A model generated the notes under the pieces. That model did not search any database, had not been told where the DNA came from, and saw only the letters and a program-made list of their open reading frames with translations. Positions 1-33,500 of a stretch of DNA of 33,601 nucleotides are shown in pieces; position 1 is the first letter of the stretch, and every line of letters starts with the position of its first letter. The stretch comes from Candidatus Saccharimonadota bacterium (GTDB lineage: Bacteria > Patescibacteriota > Saccharimonadia > Saccharimonadales > Saccharimonadaceae): contig JAFRJZ010000024.1 of NCBI GenBank assembly GCA_017431945.1, forward strand, positions 1 to 33,601. Direction: 5' to 3'. The position numbers and the translations under genes were made by a program.

Positions 1-318
1 GCTTCTACCAGCGCTACTACCAGCGAGTTCTATACTATGCTTAACAACTATATCTCTACTGGTACTTGGTCTAGCACTTACTGGACTGGCGTCACTACCA
101 CCAACTTTACCAACGCCCCTGTTTCTCTCGTGTTCTCAGGCTACTACTACGAAGGTTTGAGCGACCAGGGCGACTACGGCGTCTGGTGGTCGTCTACTGC
201 CTACGGTAGCTACTACGCGTACCTCTTGGACGCGGATAGCGATGGCTACGTGTACCCGCGCGACGGCAACCTTAAGAGCAACGGCTTCTCTATTAGGTGC
301 CTTATTCCTGGTGTGTAG
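1..318 (+). CDS. DGR target protein 1, C-terminal part of a FISUMP-domain surface protein (5' end outside window)
   Basis: The frame is open from base 1, so this is the 3' end of a longer gene. It encodes about 105 residues ending in SIRCLIPGV and a TAG stop. The WWSST and SIRC motifs, and its close match to the C-terminus of the complete gene at 31946-33370, identify the Fibrobacter succinogenes major paralogous (FISUMP) family. That fold is related to C-type lectin and formylglycine-generating-enzyme-like domains used by DGRs as diversified ligand-binding surfaces. The last two thirds is variable repeat VR1. The protein is probably exported and surface displayed, by analogy with the complete paralogue, whose N-terminus carries a signal peptide; the N-terminus here is not visible. 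It converges on the reverse transcriptase gene. The binding partner cannot be told from sequence. Confidence 0.88.
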   Translation, partial: ASTSATTSEFYTMLNNYISTGTWSSTYWTGVTTTNFTNAPVSLVFSGYYYEGLSDQGDYGVWWSSTAYGSYYAYLLDADSDGYVYPRDGNLKSNGFSIRCLIPGV

Positions 319-349
319 TAGTGGGGTTTGCCTTCTCCCCACTCCTCCC
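114..349 (+). repeat. DGR variable repeat VR1
   Basis: This aligns without gaps to the template repeat at 2614-2849 (offset exactly 2500). Between 114 and 341 I count 26 substitutions, at 142, 155, 161, 172, 175, 181, 182, 202, 206, 211, 214, 223, 224, 229, 235, 241, 247, 253, 262, 265, 266, 271, 272, 278, 286 and 287. All are adenine in TR and become T (12), G (12) or C (2) here. No C, G or T of TR is changed. This adenine-specific pattern is the hallmark of DGR mutagenic retrohoming. The last 54 nt (288-341) are identical to TR and include the coding end and stop, as expected for the initiation-of-mutagenic-homing region. Confidence 0.96.
321..342 (+). other. Hairpin just after the VR1 stop codon
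   Basis: Perfect 6-bp stem (GTGGGG 321-326 with CCCCAC 337-342) and a 10-nt loop, 2 nt after the stop codon. The same hairpin with a 5-bp stem plus G:T follows TR (2821-2842) and VR2 (33373-33394). In the Bordetella phage DGR a hairpin or cruciform just downstream of the VR promotes retrohoming. The same role here is inference. There is no U-tract, so it is not a typical terminator. Confidence 0.55.
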
Positions 350-411
350 TGGCAAGACCCAATGCACTGCTATGACGGGCTGGAAACCATGAGCTCCAGC
401 CTGTCTCCAAG

Positions 412-1581
412 CTACTTTTGTTTGCGTCGCTTGCGACGCAAACCGTTTACCATCAATTCATAATCTGAGAATTGATACTCCCAGCCCAGGCTCTCAAACA
501 CCGCCTGTTCTAATCTGCGAGCGTTGTAACATTTGAGGCGCCCCAAGTATGACACCAGCCCCGCCAAATCCGCCTCCGAGCCGTTCTGGGCTACCGCGCG
601 GGCGTTTTTGCGGAAATTCTTCACCAAGCGCTGGTCTGGGATGATATGATAAGGAGCCAAGCGTACACCCAGAAAGGGAATACCACGACTGAACGGTTGG
701 AGCGAGCATTTTTTCGGGTTCATTTTGAGCTTCATCCCCGCGAGGTAGTCTTTCATCAGCTCAATGTCGCGAAGCAACTGCGTGCGCTGGTCCATCCGCG
801 CCAGGACGATAAAATCATCCACATAGCGCCCGTAGCACTTGTAGCCTAAGTGCATGGTGACAAACCGGTCAAAATCATTAGTGTAAATATTGCTAATCAT
901 CTGGCTACTGTAATTACCAATTGGGAGCCCCACCCCCTCAGGCTGATTAAACAGGCTCTTGTGTTGTGGTAGGTAATTCCAATCGCTCTTCTTACCTCTG
1001 CGAATTGCCTTTTTGCAGGGGTCATCTAGCAATATCTGGTGCCAGAGAAAATCAGCGATACCGTATTCTTCGGTGGTGATTAGGCCTCGCCGAGATTGCC
1101 GGTTGAGCATCCGCATCGCACTTTTTACTAACTCCTGCCGGTCTAGTGAGTAGAAATAATTAGCAAAATCACCCTTAAACACCAAGATGTCCTCCTGAAA
1201 GTTGTTGCTGAGCTTGCGCGCCATCCCGTATATACGCAGTATCGCCTCATCTGTCCCCTTGTTTTTACGACAACTATACGAGTCATAAATCAGTTGGCGG
1301 TCTATAAACTGTTCTACATATTGTGCCAGTAGGTGGTGCGTCACCCTATCGGCAAAATTCGCCGCAAATATCTCTCGCACCACCGGCTTAAAGCAGATAA
1401 ATACGATACTCTTGCCCGGCGTATATTCGCGTGTATTGATGGCTTGCTCCAAGCGTTTTAGATTTTCAAACAAATACATTTCAAACTTATACTCATCTAC
1501 GGTGCTACGCTTGTGGCGCGCCGCTTCCTTATAAGCCCTGAGTAAATCGTGACACAGTTTGTCATTTACGAAGCTAAACAT
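412..1581 (-). CDS. DGR reverse transcriptase
   Basis: RNA-directed DNA polymerase that copies the TR RNA into cDNA, with misincorporation opposite adenine. In the 389-residue product I see the RT palm motifs in order: FKGDFANYF with catalytic Asp138, GLPIGNYSSQ at 218-227 (the motif-4 form typical of DGR RTs), RYVDD with Asp255/Asp256, then MNPKKCSL and GIPFLG (motifs 6-7). There is no maturase or endonuclease domain, and length and architecture fit DGR RTs rather than group II intron RTs. The start is ATG, overlapping the accessory gene's stop by 1 nt (TAATG) with AAGGAG just upstream, so translation is coupled. The C-terminus is basic (RRKRRKQK). The gene lies on the strand opposite to TR and both VRs. 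It looks intact. Confidence 0.95.
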   Translation of the reverse strand: MFSFVNDKLCHDLLRAYKEAARHKRSTVDEYKFEMYLFENLKRLEQAINTREYTPGKSIVFICFKPVVREIFAANFADRVTHHLLAQYVEQFIDRQLIYDSYSCRKNKGTDEAILRIYGMARKLSNNFQEDILVFKGDFANYFYSLDRQELVKSAMRMLNRQSRRGLITTEEYGIADFLWHQILLDDPCKKAIRRGKKSDWNYLPQHKSLFNQPEGVGLPIGNYSSQMISNIYTNDFDRFVTMHLGYKCYGRYVDDFIVLARMDQRTQLLRDIELMKDYLAGMKLKMNPKKCSLQPFSRGIPFLGVRLAPYHIIPDQRLVKNFRKNARAVAQNGSEADLAGLVSYLGRLKCYNARRLEQAVFESLGWEYQFSDYELMVNGLRRKRRKQK

Positions 1582-2375
1582 TACTTAGCTCCTTTTTTAT
1601 TGAGCTGTTTGGTGATTTTTTCTTGGAGGCTAACTAGCTCTTCGGCCGAGTTGGCAATAAATTTCATCGGTGCCTCGTGGGTGTTGAGCAAGAAATGAAG
1701 CCAGTTGAGTAACCAGTCTATATCGCGTTGAGCCTGTTCTAGGTATTCGCGTTCTGACATTTGCTCCTTAGCCATCGCTAGCCACCCCATATGGAGTGCA
1801 AACGCTTTTTTGCCCGCCTCCACCCCGTATAGTTCGCGGATGGCTGGGTTCATCCGGCGGACATGATCAATGATGCGGGTAGATACCAGACGGATATCGG
1901 TGAGGGCGGTGGGTTTTTTGATCTTGGGCTCCAAGTATTTATTAAGTTGCTCGCGCGCAGTTTCTTCCTTGTTGCGCCAGCGATTGATTTCAAGGCTAGA
2001 TACCGCTTGTGGTAGTTTGAATATTTTGATATACTGAGCGTTTTCGGGGTGGCGAGGCTGGATAGGTTTTAGCCCCAGCTCGGTGAGGCGCTGAGCGTAT
2101 TTGGTTTCAAAATCGCCAAACCTTAGTGTTCCCAGCCCAAACTTAGCAAAACTATCGGTATCCTTGCGAAGTGAGCCATGATAGTTAAGTCGGCTGGCGT
2201 AGAGGTTGATAAAAATCAGTGCTGAGTTGCCACCCATCAGGAGCCACTTGGGGTCGCTAGGCGAAGCATAAAAATACAGCTTGTCGTAGTTTTTCTTTTC
2301 TATATCCACTAGTTCGGTTTTGATATTTTTGATTTGGTCGCGCAAGGCTTTGCGACTGAGGTTTGATTTTGTCAT
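1581..2375 (-). CDS. DGR accessory protein (Avd-like C-terminal helices, possible MutS-like N-terminal part)
   Basis: 264 residues, first gene of a two-gene operon with the RT (1-nt overlap). The C-terminal part, about 155-258, is predicted helical, with amphipathic segments (TDIRLVSTRIIDHVRR, QAQRDIDWLLNWLHFLL, EELVSLQEKITKQL). This is the size and position expected of an Avd-type four-helix-bundle accessory protein that binds RT and TR RNA. The N-terminal part, about 25-125, contains FGLGTLRFGDFE (GDF-E at 87-90), loosely resembling the GDFYE motif of MutS mismatch-recognition domains. MutS-like DGR accessory proteins are known from other lineages. Position and operon support the accessory role well. 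The domain assignments are weak visual inferences. An AAGG-containing stretch lies shortly before the ATG. Confidence 0.72.
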   Translation of the reverse strand: MTKSNLSRKALRDQIKNIKTELVDIEKKNYDKLYFYASPSDPKWLLMGGNSALIFINLYASRLNYHGSLRKDTDSFAKFGLGTLRFGDFETKYAQRLTELGLKPIQPRHPENAQYIKIFKLPQAVSSLEINRWRNKEETAREQLNKYLEPKIKKPTALTDIRLVSTRIIDHVRRMNPAIRELYGVEAGKKAFALHMGWLAMAKEQMSEREYLEQAQRDIDWLLNWLHFLLNTHEAPMKFIANSAEELVSLQEKITKQLNKKGAK

Positions 2376-2400
2376 TTTTAGTACCTTCGATTAATTTAGT

Positions 2401-2456
2401 ATTGTATTTCTATTTCATCTCAAAATCTTTATTTTTTAAAGGTTAAGCGATATAAT
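2401..2456. promoter_or_regulatory. Putative divergent promoters for the RT operon (-) and TR RNA (+)
   Basis: On the plus strand a TATAAT lies at 2451-2456, which would start a transcript near 2463, running through the leader into TR. On the minus strand TACAAT (complement of 2401-2406) lies 25 nt before the accessory ATG. Neither has a clear -35 box. The assignment rests on -10 matches and on the need for TR to be transcribed rightward, in the same sense as VR. Confidence 0.45.
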
Positions 2457-2613
2457 GTGAGTAGGGATTGTCAATCTGCTTTGTTGAGCCAGAGCCTCTT
2501 CAAAGCGGAAAAACTAGGGAGGAGTTCAGGAAAGTCCTCGCTTATAGCGTGGCTAATCAGCTTTTGCATCCCGAGGGGTGTTGAAGCATCTAAACTTTCC
2601 TGGGATTTGCGTT
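2457..2613 (+). ncRNA. Structured 5' leader of the DGR template RNA
   Basis: Non-coding stretch between a predicted -10 box and TR. It can form a hairpin from GCTTTG 2478-2483 with CAAAGC 2501-2506. It can also form a larger element closed by a perfect 9-bp pairing, 2527-2535 with 2594-2602, that encloses CCTCG 2536-2540 with CGAGG 2572-2576. The second helix ends only about 12 nt before TR homology begins. DGR template RNAs need flanking RNA for RT/accessory binding and cDNA priming. That this leader does the job is inference from position and pairing. Confidence 0.5.
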
Positions 2614-2868
2614 CGCCCCTGTTTCTCTCGTGTTCTCAGGCAACTACTACGAAGATTTGAACGACCAGGGCAACAACGGCAACTGGTGGTCGTCTACTGC
2701 CAACGATAGCAACAACGCGTACAACTTGAACGCGAATAGCAATGGCAACGTGAACCCGCGCAACAACAACAATAAGAACAACGGCAACTCTATTAGGTGC
2801 CTTATTCCTGGTGTGTAGTAGTGGGGTTTGCCTTCTCCCCATTCCTCCCGCCCTCAATCCCTCAGGAG
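2614..2868 (+). repeat. DGR template repeat TR
   Basis: Donor sequence for mutagenesis. It is gap-free against VR1 (114-349), and 2782-2868 is identical to VR2 33334-33420. The core 2641-2790 is adenine-rich (about 56 A by my count), and read in the VR frame it is dominated by Asn codons (21, nearly all AAC), the codon that gives the widest amino-acid range when its two A positions are randomised. Non-mutable scaffold codons (WWSST, SIRCLIPGV) are kept. The frame is open from 2630 to a TAG at 2818, but it has no ribosome binding site or signal peptide and should be read as template, not gene. It lies divergent to the accessory/RT operon. Confidence 0.96.
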
Positions 2869-2909
2869 CAGAAAAAGCCACTTTTTCTCCCCCTCAACCT
2901 TAATTCTTA

Positions 2910-16127: not shown

Positions 16128-16145
16128 ATAGCTATTGATATCGAC

Positions 16146-16169
16146 AGTAGATGATCTCTATGATAAAAT
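16146..16169 (+). promoter_or_regulatory. Extended -10 promoter (TGATAAAAT), leaderless gene
   Basis: TG-A-TAAAAT at 16161-16169, with TCGACA 17 nt before the TAAAAT (16141-16146) as a partial -35. The ATG at 16177 begins 7 nt after the -10 box. Confidence 0.55.
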
Positions 16170-16176
16170 ACAGGGG

Positions 16177-16575
16177 ATGAATAATAAAAAAGCCAAGCAA
16201 GGTAGAATTATAATTCCAGGTGGTCGTAAGCCGTGGCCACACGAACTTCGTATTGCAAATATTTTAGCAATGGCTGGACATAATATAGAATTTCTATCAG
16301 AATCAAATACGAGTACTGCCGATATTTTACTGGATGGTATTGAATACGAAATGAAATCTCCGTTTACCAATAAGCCTGATAAATTAGAACGCAATATTAA
16401 GCGTGGGTTGAAGCAGTCCAAAAATATTATTTTCGATTCATCAAGAATAAAAAACATGCGAGACGATAATCTCCGAAGATTTCTAACTAGAAAGGTTAAA
16501 GGGCAGAAACAGATTGGCGAGTTCATTCTTATCACAAAACATGGTCAAATTATTGACATTAAATCACTAATTTGA
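16177..16575 (+). CDS. CdiA-C tRNase-like / PD-(D/E)XK nuclease-fold protein
   Basis: 132 residues, a small stand-alone basic protein. The pattern HEL (Glu23), TADILLDGIEYEMKS (Asp49, then Glu58-x-Lys60), and GLKQSKNIIFD (Gln80) matches the PD-(D/E)XK-type tRNase domain found at the C-terminus of contact-dependent inhibition toxins and in some phage proteins. If so, it would cleave RNA (typically tRNA). No signal peptide, membrane segment or secretion domain is present, and no evident immunity gene is adjacent. The ATG at 16177 is preferred over the upstream in-frame TTG at 16135, because the TTG precedes the predicted promoter -10 box. It ends with its own terminator. The family assignment is from memory of the motif pattern; the function is inference. 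Confidence 0.62.
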   Translation: MNNKKAKQGRIIIPGGRKPWPHELRIANILAMAGHNIEFLSESNTSTADILLDGIEYEMKSPFTNKPDKLERNIKRGLKQSKNIIFDSSRIKNMRDDNLRRFLTRKVKGQKQIGEFILITKHGQIIDIKSLI

Positions 16576-22735: not shown

Positions 22736-23527
22736 GTGAATAGCGCCAAAACTCTCAAGTCAAAAAAAGAGCAGCCTCAAGGTTTTACCATTATTGAGGT
22801 CACGCTCTTTTTGGCACTCACCGGTCTTGTTTTGGCTGGTATTATCATGACTTTTTCCAGCGTTAGTCGTCAACGCTATAGTGACTCTGTTCAAAATTTT
22901 GCCGAATATTTACGCGATTTATATTCTCAAACCGAAAACATCCAAAACAATGGCAATAATTGTCAATGCGAAAAAAGCCGCAAAAACACTTGTTGTGGCC
23001 AGGGTAAAACCGCTTTTTATGGCAAGATCGTCACTTTTGACACCAATAGCAAAGATCCCAACGGCCAAACCATCAAATCTTATGATGTCATCGGTAATGC
23101 TCATCTTGGCACCAATCTCGTTGATGACACCAAGCAACTACTGCGAAATGACATCAAAATTAGTTTTATTAGTGGTGATCGAGGCGTAGAATACAAACCA
23201 GTCTGGCAGGCCATCGCTCAACGTCCCGACCGCAAAGTTTTTACAGGAAGTATTCTTATCGTGCGTTCCCCCGATAGTGGCATTATCCATACTTATTATC
23301 GTGATCAAGCTGTCACTCCTAGTAGCGGTGTCAATTTAACCGATTGGCTAAACGGTGCTAATAATACTAGCGACACTAATCTTTGCATTTATTCCGATGA
23401 ATTAGTATCTTCTCGTGGTGAGCGTCGTAATATTCGTATCGCCAAGGACGCCCATAATGCTTCTGGTGTTAAATTAATTGCTAGTAATCTCCCATCATGG
23501 GAAGGGGGTTCAGTATGCGGCAGTTAG
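22736..23527 (+). CDS. Type IV minor pilin-like protein A
   Basis: 263 residues. Class III signal: basic leader, then QG/FTIIEV with Gly before the cleavage site and Glu at +5, followed by a hydrophobic helix (about 17-38). After prepilin peptidase processing this would be assembled into, or prime, a type IV pilus. The rest is polar, with a Cys-rich region (NNCQCEKSRKNTCCGQ, about 80-95) in the position of a pilin variable loop. The start is GTG, with AAGGGAG just upstream, 9 nt after the preceding stop. It overlaps the next gene. Confidence 0.85.
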   Translation: MNSAKTLKSKKEQPQGFTIIEVTLFLALTGLVLAGIIMTFSSVSRQRYSDSVQNFAEYLRDLYSQTENIQNNGNNCQCEKSRKNTCCGQGKTAFYGKIVTFDTNSKDPNGQTIKSYDVIGNAHLGTNLVDDTKQLLRNDIKISFISGDRGVEYKPVWQAIAQRPDRKVFTGSILIVRSPDSGIIHTYYRDQAVTPSSGVNLTDWLNGANNTSDTNLCIYSDELVSSRGERRNIRIAKDAHNASGVKLIASNLPSWEGGSVCGS

Positions 23528-24258
23528 CGAATTCTCGAAATTCTCGACATGGTGATACCTTTGTTGAAGTTTGTTTTGCTCTAGCCATATTTAGCTTTCT
23601 TGCAGTTATTGCTATCAGCTCCATGAATAAGAATCTCGTCAGTGTCCAATCTACCCTCGAATCTGAAGTTACGCGTAGCGAGATTGACGCTCAAACCGAA
23701 GCTATTCGCTTCATTCACGAAGCCTATGTTGGTAGTCTTAGTTCTGGTTATATAAATAATACCTGGACCAACATTACCGAAAATGCTCTAAAGCCAAGCG
23801 AAGCTAGCAATCTTGATAAAATGTGGCCGCCCCAGACTTGTGGTGATATTTATGATAGCAGTAAGAATCCCTACAAAAGCAAAATGATGATTATTAATAC
23901 TCGTGCACTTAGCGAAGACGACGGCAATAGTGTCGTTTCAGCTGGCAACAGTAACGAAATTTTCACAGAAGCTGTTATTATCCCGCGCTTAATTTATAAT
24001 AATCAAGACGACACCGCCCTCAATTCTCTCACTACTGATCCCGATGCTGATCTTTTGTCAAAATCTGAAGGCATTTGGTTTTATGCTGTTGATGGTGGTG
24101 ATTTTTATGATATCTATCTCCAATCTTGTTGGTATGCCACAGAAAGTCCTACACCCCGCACCGTCGATACTGTTTTTCGCCTTTATAACCCTCCGCAACC
24201 AGTTAGTAGCGTCAACCATCATAATAATTTAAATCATGAAACTAGGCAGGCTTGTTAG
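23515..24258 (+). CDS. Type IV minor pilin-like protein B
   Basis: 247 residues. N-terminal motif RHG/DTFVEVCFALAIFSFLAV: Gly before the cleavage site and Glu at +5 of the mature protein, then a hydrophobic helix, so a prepilin. The remainder is polar with two Cys (PPQTCGD, LQSCWYA). The ATG at 23515 is preferred over the ATG at 23497, because GAAGGGGG sits directly before it. The gene overlaps the preceding pilin gene by 13 nt. The missing aromatic at +1 (Asp instead of Phe) is unusual for a class III site, but minor pilins vary. Confidence 0.82.
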   Translation: MRQLANSRNSRHGDTFVEVCFALAIFSFLAVIAISSMNKNLVSVQSTLESEVTRSEIDAQTEAIRFIHEAYVGSLSSGYINNTWTNITENALKPSEASNLDKMWPPQTCGDIYDSSKNPYKSKMMIINTRALSEDDGNSVVSAGNSNEIFTEAVIIPRLIYNNQDDTALNSLTTDPDADLLSKSEGIWFYAVDGGDFYDIYLQSCWYATESPTPRTVDTVFRLYNPPQPVSSVNHHNNLNHETRQAC

Positions 24259-24267
24259 GAGAAATAT

Positions 24268-25089
24268 ATGAAAGATTTTATTGAAAGATTATCAAAGAAA
24301 ACTCTCAAAACCAAATCTGGTTTTACTCTAATTGAATTTTCCATCGCTCTAGCCGTCCTCGCTATATTTCTTATTCTCATCCTGCAGGTTTCTAACAATA
24401 CCATCGCTATTTATCAAAAAGGCCTTGCCACCAAATCTATCAGTACTGCTGGTCGCGATTTGCTCGATGAGCTTTCTCGATCTATTGCTGCTTCACCGAC
24501 CGGTGGACTTAAAGTGCTTTGTGACAAAACTAAAAACCCCGACGATTGCAAAAACGACTCTGACATTCAACTTGGCATAGTTTATCAAATAGTTTACAAT
24601 GGTCAAAATCCAGCCTATGGCATGTTTTGTACTGGCAAGTATTCCTATTTTTGGAATTCTGGTTATGTACTTCAATCTGGTGGCCAAGGCCAACAGGTAA
24701 CCTATAAAAATGGTGCGAGCAATCGTCATGATGCCCTTGTCCGTTTTGAAGATCCAGGCAATGACCTCTGCATTAATTATATGGAAGGCCGAGGTCTTAA
24801 TGTTCCTACTAATAAGGCCCCAGTTGTATTACTCCAAAACGACTCCGATCTCCAAACCGCACTTTACGATTTTACTATTTTCCAGCCCAGTCAAGACGTG
24901 ACCATCTCGCGCATCTTTTACTCTGGCACCTTTGTTCTTGGCACTCTTTCTGGCAATATTAGTAATATCACTGCCTCTAATGATTATTGTCGGGACGAAG
25001 CGATGCGTTCACTTAGTTCCGATCTCGCGTATTGTTCAATTAATAAGTTTAATTTTGCCGCACAGGCGTTAGGAGGACAAAATGATTAA
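24268..25089 (+). CDS. Type IV minor pilin-like protein C
   Basis: 273 residues. Classic prepilin motif SG/FTLIEFSIALAVLAIFLIL (Gly before the site, Phe +1, Glu +5), with a 19-residue basic leader. The polar C-terminal domain has several Cys (VLCDKTKNPDDC, MFCTGK, LCINY), which may form disulfides. TAGGAGA lies upstream of the ATG, 9 nt after the previous stop. The end overlaps the next gene by 8 nt. It is the best candidate for a PilW/PilJ-like minor pilin, judging by N-terminus and order, though I cannot match a subfamily. Confidence 0.87.
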   Translation: MKDFIERLSKKTLKTKSGFTLIEFSIALAVLAIFLILILQVSNNTIAIYQKGLATKSISTAGRDLLDELSRSIAASPTGGLKVLCDKTKNPDDCKNDSDIQLGIVYQIVYNGQNPAYGMFCTGKYSYFWNSGYVLQSGGQGQQVTYKNGASNRHDALVRFEDPGNDLCINYMEGRGLNVPTNKAPVVLLQNDSDLQTALYDFTIFQPSQDVTISRIFYSGTFVLGTLSGNISNITASNDYCRDEAMRSLSSDLAYCSINKFNFAAQALGGQND

Positions 25090-26275
25090 ACATTTTAAAT
25101 ATCAAACTAAAAAAGGCGGTGCTTCAATCTATGTCACGATTTTTATCGCCCTCATTATTAGCATAGTGACGCTCAGCTTTGCTCGCCTTGCTATTTCCGA
25201 GTTGTCAAAATCAGGCGATTACGATCTCAATCAGTCTGCCTATGACTCCGCTCTCGCTGGTGTTGAAGATGCTAGGCTTACTATTTCCTCCTGTCTCCAA
25301 ACCGGCAAGACTCTCGACCAATGTGGTATCACCAGTACTAACCTTGATGATTGTAACGCCTTTCTTAAGAGCCCATATATTGATCGCGACGAGGTAGATG
25401 GCGCCGTCTTTATTGAAGAGAACAGCAACCAATCTGGCGAAACCACCTCTCAAGCCTACACCTGCGTAGTCCTCAACAGCAACCTACCAGATTATCTTGG
25501 TCAAATCAGTTCAGATTATCGCGTGCGCTTAGTACCACTCAAATCAGATAATCTTAACGGCGTTGATAATGTTGTCCTCAGTTGGTATGAAAACTCAGAA
25601 ACTCAATGTCCTAGTGGTAATTGCGATGGCAAATTTGGTAGCAAAGAAAATGCTCCAGTTCCTCCCGTCCTTGCGGTTTCAGTCATTCAAGCCGGCTCTG
25701 ATTTTACTCGCGACAGCTTCAATGACACCAGAAATGGTAAATTTGGCTCTGTAGTGCTTTATCCTAATGGTAATATTGGCAATGACGTTTCTATGGCAGA
25801 AGTATCGGCCGGAGAATTAGTTAGTGCCTTTGACAAAGGTAGCGGCACCAACCAAGCCAAGATTATTGGTTGTCACTCCACCGACACTTACGCCTGTTCT
25901 GTTCGCATCAAACTCCCAAGTGCGTCACGCCACAAGGATACTACTTATCTGGTAGTTGCAATGCCTTATGACAACACTTCTTCTGCCTTTAAAGTTACCC
26001 TCAACGACAGTAGCAACTCTGTTATCAATTTCCGCGATGCTCAAATCGCTGTTGATTCTACCGGTCGTGCTAACGACGTTTACCGTCGTATTGAAGCGCG
26101 TATTGACCCCGTAGATATTTACTATCCATATTCACTCTATGGCGTTGAACTTGCATCGGCTTATGGCAGTGAAGGCGGTATGGACAAAGATTTCTGGGTC
26201 ACTCGCAATTGTTGGATGAGCAAGGGTGGCAGCGTAAGCAGTTGTGATAATAGCGGCACCTCGTATCCGAATTAG
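25082..26275 (+). CDS. PilX-like pilus-associated protein
   Basis: 397 residues. The N-terminus (KKGGASIYVTIFIALIISIVTLSFA, in two short runs KKGGASIYV and TIFIALIISIV) resembles PilX/GspK-type proteins: a GG-A-S start of a hydrophobic helix, with no Glu at +5. The following ARLAISELSKSGDYDLNQSAYDSALAGVEDAR pattern (ELSKSGDY ... AYDSALAGVE) is also typical of these pilus-tip or priming components. The polar C-terminal region has Cys pairs (CPSGNCDG, NCWMSKGGSVSSC). GGAGGAC lies just before the ATG, which is inside the preceding gene's end. It closes the operon, followed by the initiator tRNA promoter. Confidence 0.8.
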   Translation: MIKHFKYQTKKGGASIYVTIFIALIISIVTLSFARLAISELSKSGDYDLNQSAYDSALAGVEDARLTISSCLQTGKTLDQCGITSTNLDDCNAFLKSPYIDRDEVDGAVFIEENSNQSGETTSQAYTCVVLNSNLPDYLGQISSDYRVRLVPLKSDNLNGVDNVVLSWYENSETQCPSGNCDGKFGSKENAPVPPVLAVSVIQAGSDFTRDSFNDTRNGKFGSVVLYPNGNIGNDVSMAEVSAGELVSAFDKGSGTNQAKIIGCHSTDTYACSVRIKLPSASRHKDTTYLVVAMPYDNTSSAFKVTLNDSSNSVINFRDAQIAVDSTGRANDVYRRIEARIDPVDIYYPYSLYGVELASAYGSEGGMDKDFWVTRNCWMSKGGSVSSCDNSGTSYPN

Positions 26276-31945: not shown

Positions 31946-33370
31946 ATGCAGATAAACAGAACCAAAAAAGTTCATGGGGGTTTGATTTCGCTCACCGCTC
32001 TTACTATTCTCGCGGTGTTTTTCATTGCATTTAGTACTCTCAGCATCGGCAAGGTCAACGCCGAATCAGGTAACAGTGAAGCCTCTCTAGATATAGCTGA
32101 TGTTATAGATATTTCTGCTCCTAGCACTACCACTCTCAACTGTACTCCTGGCTCTACCAGTGCCTCTGCTCAGTTATGTACTAGTAGTGCTAATGTTAGT
32201 GTTACTACTAATAACCTTACTGGCTATACTTTATATATGAATGCCACTTCTGGCTCTTCTAATGCTCTTACTAATTCTGCCGTATCTCCTAGTGCTACTA
32301 TTCCCACCCTTACTCAAGCTTACAGCTCTGCTAACTTCCCAGCAAACTATTGGGGCTATACAGGTGGCACTGACAAATCATCTGTATCTGGTGGCTATAA
32401 CTGTGCTAGTAACTATTGTCCTATCCTAGCTTATCAGTCTGCTGAATCCAACTATGCACCAAATCATGTTATTAGAGAAACTTCCGCTCCTGCTACTACT
32501 TCAACTACTAGTATTACTTTTGGTGGTAAAGTGGATATCACTAAACCTTCTGGTACTTATACTACTTCTGTGACCTTTACGGCGGTGGCGAATGCTATAC
32601 CAGCCCCACCTATCACTAATGGTATGAATATGCAAGATATTACTTCAGACAACTGTCTATCTACCCCAACTGATGTTACTTACACCGTAGTAGACACTCG
32701 CGGTGGTGGTACTAACTACACCGTCGCCAAACTCCAAGACGGTAACTGCTGGATGACTCAAAACCTTGCTCTTGGTGACTCTACTGCCATGAACCTCACC
32801 CAAGCTGATTCTAACGTTAGCTCCAGTGGCTTCACTCTCCCAGCTAGCAAAGATGAATGGTCTTATTCTTATGATAATCCGGAATTCTTCGATTATGCTA
32901 GTAAATACCCCTCTCAGCAAGCTGCTAATAAATATGGCAACTACTACAACTGGTCTGCTGCTACTGCTGGCACCAACCCATCCTCTGGTGACTCGCAATA
33001 TGACATCTGCCCTAAGAATTGGCGCCTCCCCTCTGCCTCCACCAGTGCGACCAACAGCGAATTCTACACTATGCTTAATCACTATATCTCTGGCGCTACT
33101 TGGAAAAATACTTATTGGAATGGTAATGTCATCAACACCCAATTTACTAACCCTCCTATTTCTCTCGTGTTCTCGGGCTTCTACCTTGACGACATGGTTA
33201 CTAATGACAACAACGAATACTGGTGGTCATCTACTGTCTACAATAGCAACGATGCCTACGACTTGGCAGTTGAAGATTTGGAAGAGGATGGCGATAGCTA
33301 CGTGAACCCGCGCTACTACGACGATAAGAGCATCGGCAACTCTATTAGGTGCCTTATTCCTGGTGTGTAG
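31946..33370 (+). CDS. DGR target protein 2, secreted FISUMP-domain surface protein
   Basis: 474 residues. Basic N-terminus and hydrophobic signal (about 14-36), with probable cleavage after KVNA. The mature N-terminal half is Ser/Thr/Asn-rich with TTNNLTGYTLYMNATSG-type strands, a repeat-like surface beta domain (about 45-215). The FISUMP domain starts near residue 225 (NGMNMQDITSDNCLS) and carries GNCWMTQNLALG, YGNYYNWSAATAG and CPKNWRLPS. It ends in the diversified C-terminus FSGFYLDDM ... WWSST ... SIRCLIPGV (from about 405). The VR lies in the same protein position as VR1. It would be displayed at the cell surface as the variable ligand-binding face. It has its own promoter. The ligand is unknown. 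Confidence 0.94.
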   Translation: MQINRTKKVHGGLISLTALTILAVFFIAFSTLSIGKVNAESGNSEASLDIADVIDISAPSTTTLNCTPGSTSASAQLCTSSANVSVTTNNLTGYTLYMNATSGSSNALTNSAVSPSATIPTLTQAYSSANFPANYWGYTGGTDKSSVSGGYNCASNYCPILAYQSAESNYAPNHVIRETSAPATTSTTSITFGGKVDITKPSGTYTTSVTFTAVANAIPAPPITNGMNMQDITSDNCLSTPTDVTYTVVDTRGGGTNYTVAKLQDGNCWMTQNLALGDSTAMNLTQADSNVSSSGFTLPASKDEWSYSYDNPEFFDYASKYPSQQAANKYGNYYNWSAATAGTNPSSGDSQYDICPKNWRLPSASTSATNSEFYTMLNHYISGATWKNTYWNGNVINTQFTNPPISLVFSGFYLDDMVTNDNNEYWWSSTVYNSNDAYDLAVEDLEEDGDSYVNPRYYDDKSIGNSIRCLIPGV

Positions 33371-33420
33371 TAGTGGGGTTTGCCTTCTCCCCATTCCTCC
33401 CGCCCTCAATCCCTCAGGAG
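33159..33420 (+). repeat. DGR variable repeat VR2 (remote)
   Basis: The last 87 nt (33334-33420) are identical to TR 2782-2868, including 50 nt after the stop codon. From about 33297 to 33333, all differences from TR lie at TR adenines (TR 2747, 2762, 2765, 2768, 2771, 2778 and 2781). Further 5', differences also fall on non-A bases (for example TR G2744, where VR2 has A), and VR2 is 15 nt longer, in frame. So the 3' part looks templated by this TR, and the 5' part is older or derived from another template. Confidence 0.9.
33373..33394 (+). other. Hairpin after the VR2 stop codon
   Basis: TGGGG pairs with CCCCA around a 10-nt loop, the same element as at 321-342 and after TR. It may mark the homing site. 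The 100 nt that follow, to about 33496, hold nothing I recognise. Confidence 0.5.
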
Positions 33421-33500
33421 TAGAAAAGTCACTCAAAACCCCCATTATTCGCCCTTTCTCATTCAAGCCACTCACAAAAGTTGCCTTCATATCCAACCTG

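Follow-up and report, generated by a model that had tools for sequence, protein, structure and literature searches.

In the diversity-generating retroelement (DGR) of the Bordetella phage BPP-1 (mtd, avd, TR, brt), sequence is transferred from a template repeat (TR) to a variable repeat (VR) with changes at adenines only, by means of a DGR-class reverse transcriptase (RT) and an accessory protein of the Avd fold. Its TR and VR differ near the 3' end, at the initiation of mutagenic homing site (IMH* in TR, IMH in VR), and an inverted repeat lies at the VR 3' end. How a DGR locates its target and why its own template is never overwritten have so far been partly open questions, and cDNA integration in these elements was still called incompletely understood in 2026 (PMC12875486). 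In this study, a DGR was analyzed in contig C11 of a Candidatus Saccharimonadota bacterium (JAFRJZ010000024.1, assembly GCA_017431945.1, forward strand). The contig was taken as a whole, and its 33,601 nt are referred to as the window. The locus resembles BPP-1 in all the properties listed above. However, VR, avd, TR and brt of BPP-1 lie on one strand, whereas TR here is antisense to RT and the BPP-1 order is not found. Unlike in BPP-1, Avd is predicted to be fused to an extra domain, and the structured RNA found here lies 5' of TR, whereas that of BPP-1 (Sp) lies 3' of it (PMC12875486).

Two other described groups are relevant. The G5 cassette type has an RT inverted relative to TR and VR, as here, and is outnumbered more than 20-fold by the canonical form (PMC6642488); the form that is rare in that paper is the normal form of the whole clade described below. 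DGR clade 2 of Roux et al. 2021 (Patescibacteria only, PMC8144416) is similar in host phylum and in its cellular, non-viral location alone; the main text of that paper mentions neither accessory genes nor cassette orientation. We propose, with a probability of about 0.7, that the DGR of the present clade serves to rewrite surface proteins in their C-terminal FISUMP domain, and that its template RNA contains a guide by which the target is selected while the template itself is spared. The three-way-junction leader RNA and its complementarity to VR are proposed as new on the basis of sequence comparison, and such pairing may have been mentioned earlier. Both of these, together with a second complete DGR, go beyond the initial annotation of the window.

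The retroelement and its relatives

The features of the locus are as follows.

1..318, forward strand: 3' end of the VR1 target gene, FISUMP, C-terminal 105 aa (open reading frame; PF09603, E 0.002; TIGR02145, E 0.003)
114..349, forward strand: VR1, variable repeat, 89% identical to TR, with 26/27 differences at TR adenines
320..343, forward strand: inverted repeat AGTGGGG..CCCCACT near the VR1 3' end, 7 bp and perfect in VR1, 5 bp in TR
341..350, forward strand: predicted guide-binding site ACTCCTCCCT, IMH of VR1, 10-nt complement of 2516-2525, containing C342
412..1581, reverse strand: reverse transcriptase RT1, 389 aa, with IGNYSSQ and YVDD motifs (RVT_1, 1.7e-14; family profile; tree)
1581..2375, reverse strand: accessory protein, 264 aa, predicted N-terminal alpha/beta domain and C-terminal Avd-like four-helix bundle (AlphaFold model, pLDDT 91)
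2451..2456, forward strand: TATAAT, a possible -10 box of the TR RNA (from sequence)
2516..2525, forward strand: predicted guide AGGGAGGAGT, mostly single-stranded in the predicted fold of the RNA, complement of 341-350
2527..2602, forward strand: conserved three-way-junction RNA, with P1 2527-2535/2594-2602, P2 2536-2552 and P3 2560-2587 with a CGAG loop (covariation, model matches)
2614..2849, forward strand: TR, template repeat, with IMH* at its 3' end and T2842

Direct alignment of VR1 with TR gave 27 mismatches in 236 positions, of which 26 fall on TR adenines (A>T 12, A>G 12, A>C 2). The sole exception, T>C at 342/2842, lies 3' of the stop codon and beyond the 228 positions compared in the initial annotation; within those positions all 26 mismatches fall among 63 adenines (hypergeometric p 3e-17), which confirms the adenine-only pattern reported there. 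The mutated adenines occupy codon position 1 in 17 cases and position 2 in nine, and TR contains 18 AAC codons. The RT and accessory reading frames are intact and on the minus strand, with TR and VR1 on the plus strand, just as first annotated. This locus is a diversity-generating retroelement with an intact RT and accessory gene. The view that it has been recently active fits the clean adenine-only pattern, including that of further VRs on contigs C9 (24 adenine differences, no other) and C23 (28, no other). The description as a complete DGR with a FISUMP target stands for RT, accessory, TR and VR1 and must be relaxed for the target: the gene is truncated at base 1, its 5' part being absent from the assembly because the window is the complete contig, and its FISUMP match is weak. 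As regards a C-type-lectin-like target domain, a paralogue at 31946-33370 scores above the NCBIfam cut-off only. At the 3' boundary, IMH differs from IMH* by C342 versus T2842, and it is T2842 that shortens the inverted repeat to 5 bp in TR. Most other loci show similar VR/TR differences of 1-2 bases, 4-9 nt from the repeat end. The inverted repeat at 320-343 could form a hairpin at the VR 3' end.

RT1 carries the marks of DGR-class RTs (SQ in motif 4, YxDD). Its family profile matched the BPP-1 DGR RT structure 8ub7 at 1.7e-49, with the best other RT at 4e-18, and this wide margin bears out the assignment to the DGR type. A group II intron or retron affiliation was unsupported in the TIGR04416 search (68 bits against a cut-off of 300) and likewise in the profile comparison. 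RT1 groups with RTs from loci having adenine-only TR/VR pairs. In a quick tree, a single clade of 34 RTs (SH-aLRT 99) unites RT1, RT2 of the second DGR and the RTs with large accessories; it arises from within the canonical DGR RTs, and its RT1 branch is long (1.64).

According to its structural model, the accessory protein joins an N-terminal domain without known fold to an Avd four-helix bundle. The modelled bundle matches Avd (4dwl and chains of 8ub7) at a target TM of about 0.7-0.8, with a best Foldseek E of 0.05 and a probability near 1.0, and also resembles viral Avd-like proteins. The match lies in the fold; library and profile searches gave no sequence match to Avd. Modelled alone (pLDDT 95), the N-terminal domain had no fold match in the PDB; its reading as MutS domain I was dropped after the same fold search. 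Utp12 and GGA1 matched the accessory below cut-off only, and these matches were put down to coiled-coil noise.

The comparison covered about 200 cassettes overall. An RT of the RT1 kind was found in 133/394 genomes of the family; 60 loci were fetched by place and 80 named, most of them with adenine-biased TR/VR pairs. TR is antisense to RT in 61/68 Saccharibacterial loci (some loci being present in both collections) and in 30/31 further loci. In the Saccharibacterial loci TR and RT are almost always arranged tail to tail, and the accessory (240-380 aa) usually abuts or overlaps RT, whereas other phyla mostly show the canonical VR, avd, TR, RT on a single strand. The arrangement of the window, with TR divergent upstream of the accessory and VR at the tail of RT, was found once among the loci, and L176 is the only other one with TR upstream and antisense. 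The layout had been called unusual. This holds for the divergent upstream TR but not for the antisense orientation, which is the norm of the clade. In other genera of the family, canonical-type DGRs were seen at L199 and L201 (at L201 with VR, TR and RT on one strand), and there are therefore at least two DGR lineages in the phylum.

The leader RNA and the candidate guide

On the TR strand, a common fold precedes many TRs of the clade, consisting of P1 (AGAANN/NNUUCU), P2, and P3 with a CAAG/UACG-like loop. In a seed of 10 sequences (alignment A4, trimmed to the P1 ends), 88% of cells are paired, and both sides have changed in 14/19 pairs against 7 expected from shuffles; covariation is 0.59, compared with 0.22 for shuffled data and at most 0.19 with partners slid. 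RNAalifold recovers P1 and P3 unaided. The MAFFT alignments A2 and A3 were discarded, having the P1 or P2 helices out of register. A search with model R1 over 827 kb (E up to 1) returned 15 matches, all just 5' of TR and five of them outside the seed; 554 kb of DGR loci, mostly canonical and non-Saccharibacterial, yielded none. Model R2 recovered the leaders of TR1 (the TR of the window) and TR2 in this genome, plus one weak match. Among 147 genomes of the genus it gave 18 matches at E 0.01 or better, and those compared with the RT list (G361, G257, G270, G295) each adjoin an RT; only about a tenth of the genus genomes matched, so R2 covers part of the diversity. Rfam gave nothing up to E 1 for window 2400-2900, and a sigma-70 promoter scan before TR gave no passing match. 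On the 3' side of TR, 93 nt separate it from the next gene, and no dedicated structure search was made there.

Directly 5' of P1, loci of the clade carry a segment of 7-14 nt complementary to the VR 3' end, which in the listed loci usually abuts the P1 arm. In the window, the TR counterpart of the site at 341-350 reads ATTCCTCCCG. For statistical tests, loci with a VR within 300 nt of TR were removed, and leaders permuted among loci served as controls; same-sense leader/VR matches came from such close loci and were rejected. In 53 loci whose leader and VR do not overlap, the longest uninterrupted complementary stretch between a leader and the VR end of its own locus has a mean length of 8.55 nt, and permuted leaders give 6.05 (sd 0.13; z 18.8). 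The VR middle (z 1.2) and the distant flank gave no such signal. In a replicate of 21 fresh loci, z was 8.7. A complement of >=8 nt stands at the same place in 31 loci, where about 4 would be expected by estimate, and in 26/31 it is longer to VR than to TR. Six loci reach 13-14 nt, partly extending past the repeat into the flank found at VR only; at L179, L205, L185 and L180 pairing continues 4-7 nt into this flank. A test neutral between VR and TR was anchored on bases common to both and scored leader pairing at their first difference. In 74 loci, the leader pairs there with VR in 23 cases, with TR in one and with neither in one (permuted 1.3/1.0/1.6). The leader thus follows VR, and the IMH/IMH* difference therefore sits where TR would be spared. 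A GAA motif lies 3' of VR in 31/53 loci against three for TR (p 4e-9). In this genome, VR1 and a copy on contig C27 keep the guide site and have the flank GGCAAGAC in common, while TR is without the site. The IMH of VR1 had no occurrence in IMG/VR.

These data are consistent with the following mechanism. The TR strand would be transcribed into an RNA comprising the leader (hairpin, guide and three-way junction) and then TR, and by analogy with BPP-1 this RNA may be bound by RT1 and the Avd-fusion protein. As the adenine-only pattern indicates, RT1 copies TR with errors at adenines. The guide at 2516-2525 would pair with the VR1 coding strand at 341-350 and place the cDNA at the 3' boundary, as the locus-specific complementarity suggests. 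TR would escape by the guide mismatch at 2842 and by having no VR flank, two properties seen in the sequence to which we assign this role. RNA:DNA pairing would then set both target choice and transfer direction, with the VR-end hairpin as a second cue.

Other explanations have to be weighed against this. The element might be an ordinary DGR in which VR/TR homology and the 3' hairpin choose the target as in BPP-1, while the leader only binds the RT-accessory complex. Hairpins are indeed stronger in the 3' flanks of VR, averaging -8.5 kcal/mol there against -4.8 kcal/mol in those of TR (61 loci, p 1.6e-5; VR1 7 bp, TR 5 bp), and BPP-1 relies on IMH plus hairpin (PMC3240598), but the locus-specific complementarity in both sets of loci and the 23:1 preference for VR would be left unexplained, and we consider this account unlikely. 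If the segment instead paired with the IMH* of its own TR inside the RNA, closing it for priming, the VR match would be a by-product of TR/VR similarity. The leader does match TR ends above chance (z 9.2; 7.3 in the 21-locus replicate), and in the 44 canonical DGRs that are cellular, TR is matched as well as VR or better. However, at VR/TR differences the leader follows VR by 23 to 1, and in the four loci named above pairing enters the VR-only flank, which makes internal pairing very unlikely. The segment could also be an antisense element acting on the target mRNA, for regulation or for finding the locus during transcription, rather than pairing with DNA. Since the VR coding strand is the mRNA sequence, the complementarity cannot separate mRNA from DNA; the site lies exactly at the retrohoming boundary, though, and mostly 3' of the stop codon, and the match to the IMH/IMH* difference weakly suggests a role in transfer. 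An mRNA target is considered quite unlikely. That the element has decayed, its adenine-only pattern being a relic, is highly improbable: the long RT1 branch and the many non-adenine differences of VR2 and C27 would fit decay, but the RT and accessory frames are intact, three VRs (VR1, C9 and C23) have no non-adenine change in 198-228 nt, and the RNA structure is kept.

Several observations weigh against the guide reading itself. The complementarity is short (10 nt in the window) and was spotted by eye before testing, and discovery and replicate loci were combined for the neutral test. Among the 21 replicate loci, the length of the match shows no preference for VR over TR (8 vs 8), and the GAA motif follows the same trend (7 vs 2) without significance. 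About a third of the loci have no clear guide. Within this genome, the adenine-only VRs of C9, C23 and C21 have no guide site, so that recombination from an acceptor or a second route is needed for them, and C27 has the site but many non-adenine differences.

Other repeats and genes in the genome

The genome (G000; 728 kb in 27 contigs, 97.6% complete) was assigned to a Saccharibacterium, as first supposed. Its closest named relatives in an alignment-based search are Ca. Saccharibacteria of ruminant gut; a single-sequence search of the genome contigs recovered no relative, whereas the search with an alignment succeeded. A search with TR found further copies beyond VR1, among them one in the window.

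31946..33370, forward strand: FISUMP paralogue, full length, 474 aa, with a signal-peptide-like N terminus and a diverged VR copy (TIGR02145, 1.1e-10)
33155..33401, forward strand: VR2, with 21 adenine and 18 non-adenine differences plus indels relative to TR

VR2 has the TR-type base and the 3' flank of TR, and is therefore probably no current acceptor. This flank, GCCCTCAATCCCTCAGGAG, is common to TR and VR2 (window 2850-2870 and 33402-33421), so TR and the VR2 gene end are related by duplication or exchange.

A second complete DGR lies on contig C7 (L016:2982-5698), with TR2, RT2 (400 aa), accessory 2 (311 aa) and a FISUMP VR that differs from TR2 at 20 adenines and at no other base over 189 nt. 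Contig C21 bears another TR2 copy, with 22 adenine differences and no other. The VRs of C1 and C2 (L019 right end; L017:88-261) have 13 non-adenine differences from TR2 in common; where the two disagree, most positions are TR2 adenines (22/27). The shared differences point to a third template, which seems to be missing from the assembly.

Many contig ends of this genome overlap by exactly 141 bases, which identifies the overlap as the assembler k-mer. In the pairs C9/C23, C7/C21 and C1/C2 the fork lies within a VR or shortly before it; VR genes therefore break the assembly. The assembly breakers seen in this genome are FISUMP genes, insertion-like repeats and cell-surface repeats. The first 141 bases of C9 and C23, including the mutated half of the VR, are identical and are followed by 17 differences, all at TR adenines; the two contigs represent either duplicated loci or population variants. 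Their common sequence runs up to CCTAAATCCCCCA and then diverges, and an IS3-like transposase gene (L014:402-1862) lies close downstream of the C23 VR. The adenine-only VRs of C9 (L013:1-220), C23 (L014:1-218) and C21 (L018:120-300) have no IMH/hairpin end, and the variable domain of C21 is internal, with another FISUMP domain after it. The ends of these three suggest recombination between target genes.

Elsewhere in the window, a run of prepilin-like genes at 22736-26275 (N termini GFTIIEV and GFTLIEF) is a probable pilus or pseudopilus locus. Two small proteins, at window 16135-16575 and L015:365-802, have alike C-terminal halves (EIKSP..K..I.K.LKQS.NIIID) and look like a nuclease-fold domain; one of them stands beside a FISUMP gene.

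Canonical retroelements and the meaning of a possible guide

A similar but weaker signal was found outside the clade, where sequence upstream of TR in 104 canonical DGRs complements VR positions -2..+14 (z 8.3); the 60 viral loci among them gave z 9.2 for VR and 2.8 for TR. Perfect complements of 13-17 nt occur in L442, L408, L375, L423, L365 and L373, and many of the canonical complements lie 100-150 nt before TR. At L261, two VRs 7 kb apart with otherwise different flanks both complement one guide. The neutral base test was small in canonical loci (6:2:2), several multi-VR phage loci showed no clear guide, and complementarity 3' of TR, on the Sp side, was weak. A 9-nt match in avd of BPP-1 (AATCAGGTG) was set aside as being, alone, within chance. 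In the canonical loci L263, L376 and L434, sequence upstream of TR has perfect complements of 14-15 nt located 5-30 nt after TR, probably an avd-spacer duplex. DGRs in general may thus be RNA-guided, with a short sequence 5' of TR that is complementary to the target at and beyond the VR end and mismatched to the template selecting the target and setting the direction of transfer. This extension is put forward tentatively, at slightly below even odds; given the small neutral test, the TR match in cellular loci and the phage loci without a guide, it is a lead rather than a result.

In sum, this clade contributes an accessory that is predicted to be an Avd fusion, a template in reversed orientation, and a structured RNA that flanks TR on the opposite side. 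If a guide resides in the template RNA, a single element would answer both how the target is found and how the template is spared. Target choice would then be predictable from sequence, and could be tested by compensatory mutations in the existing E. coli reporter. If guides are general, a changed guide and flank would redirect a DGR. The hosts of this clade are bacteria living on other cells, a way of life in which variable surface proteins may be used.

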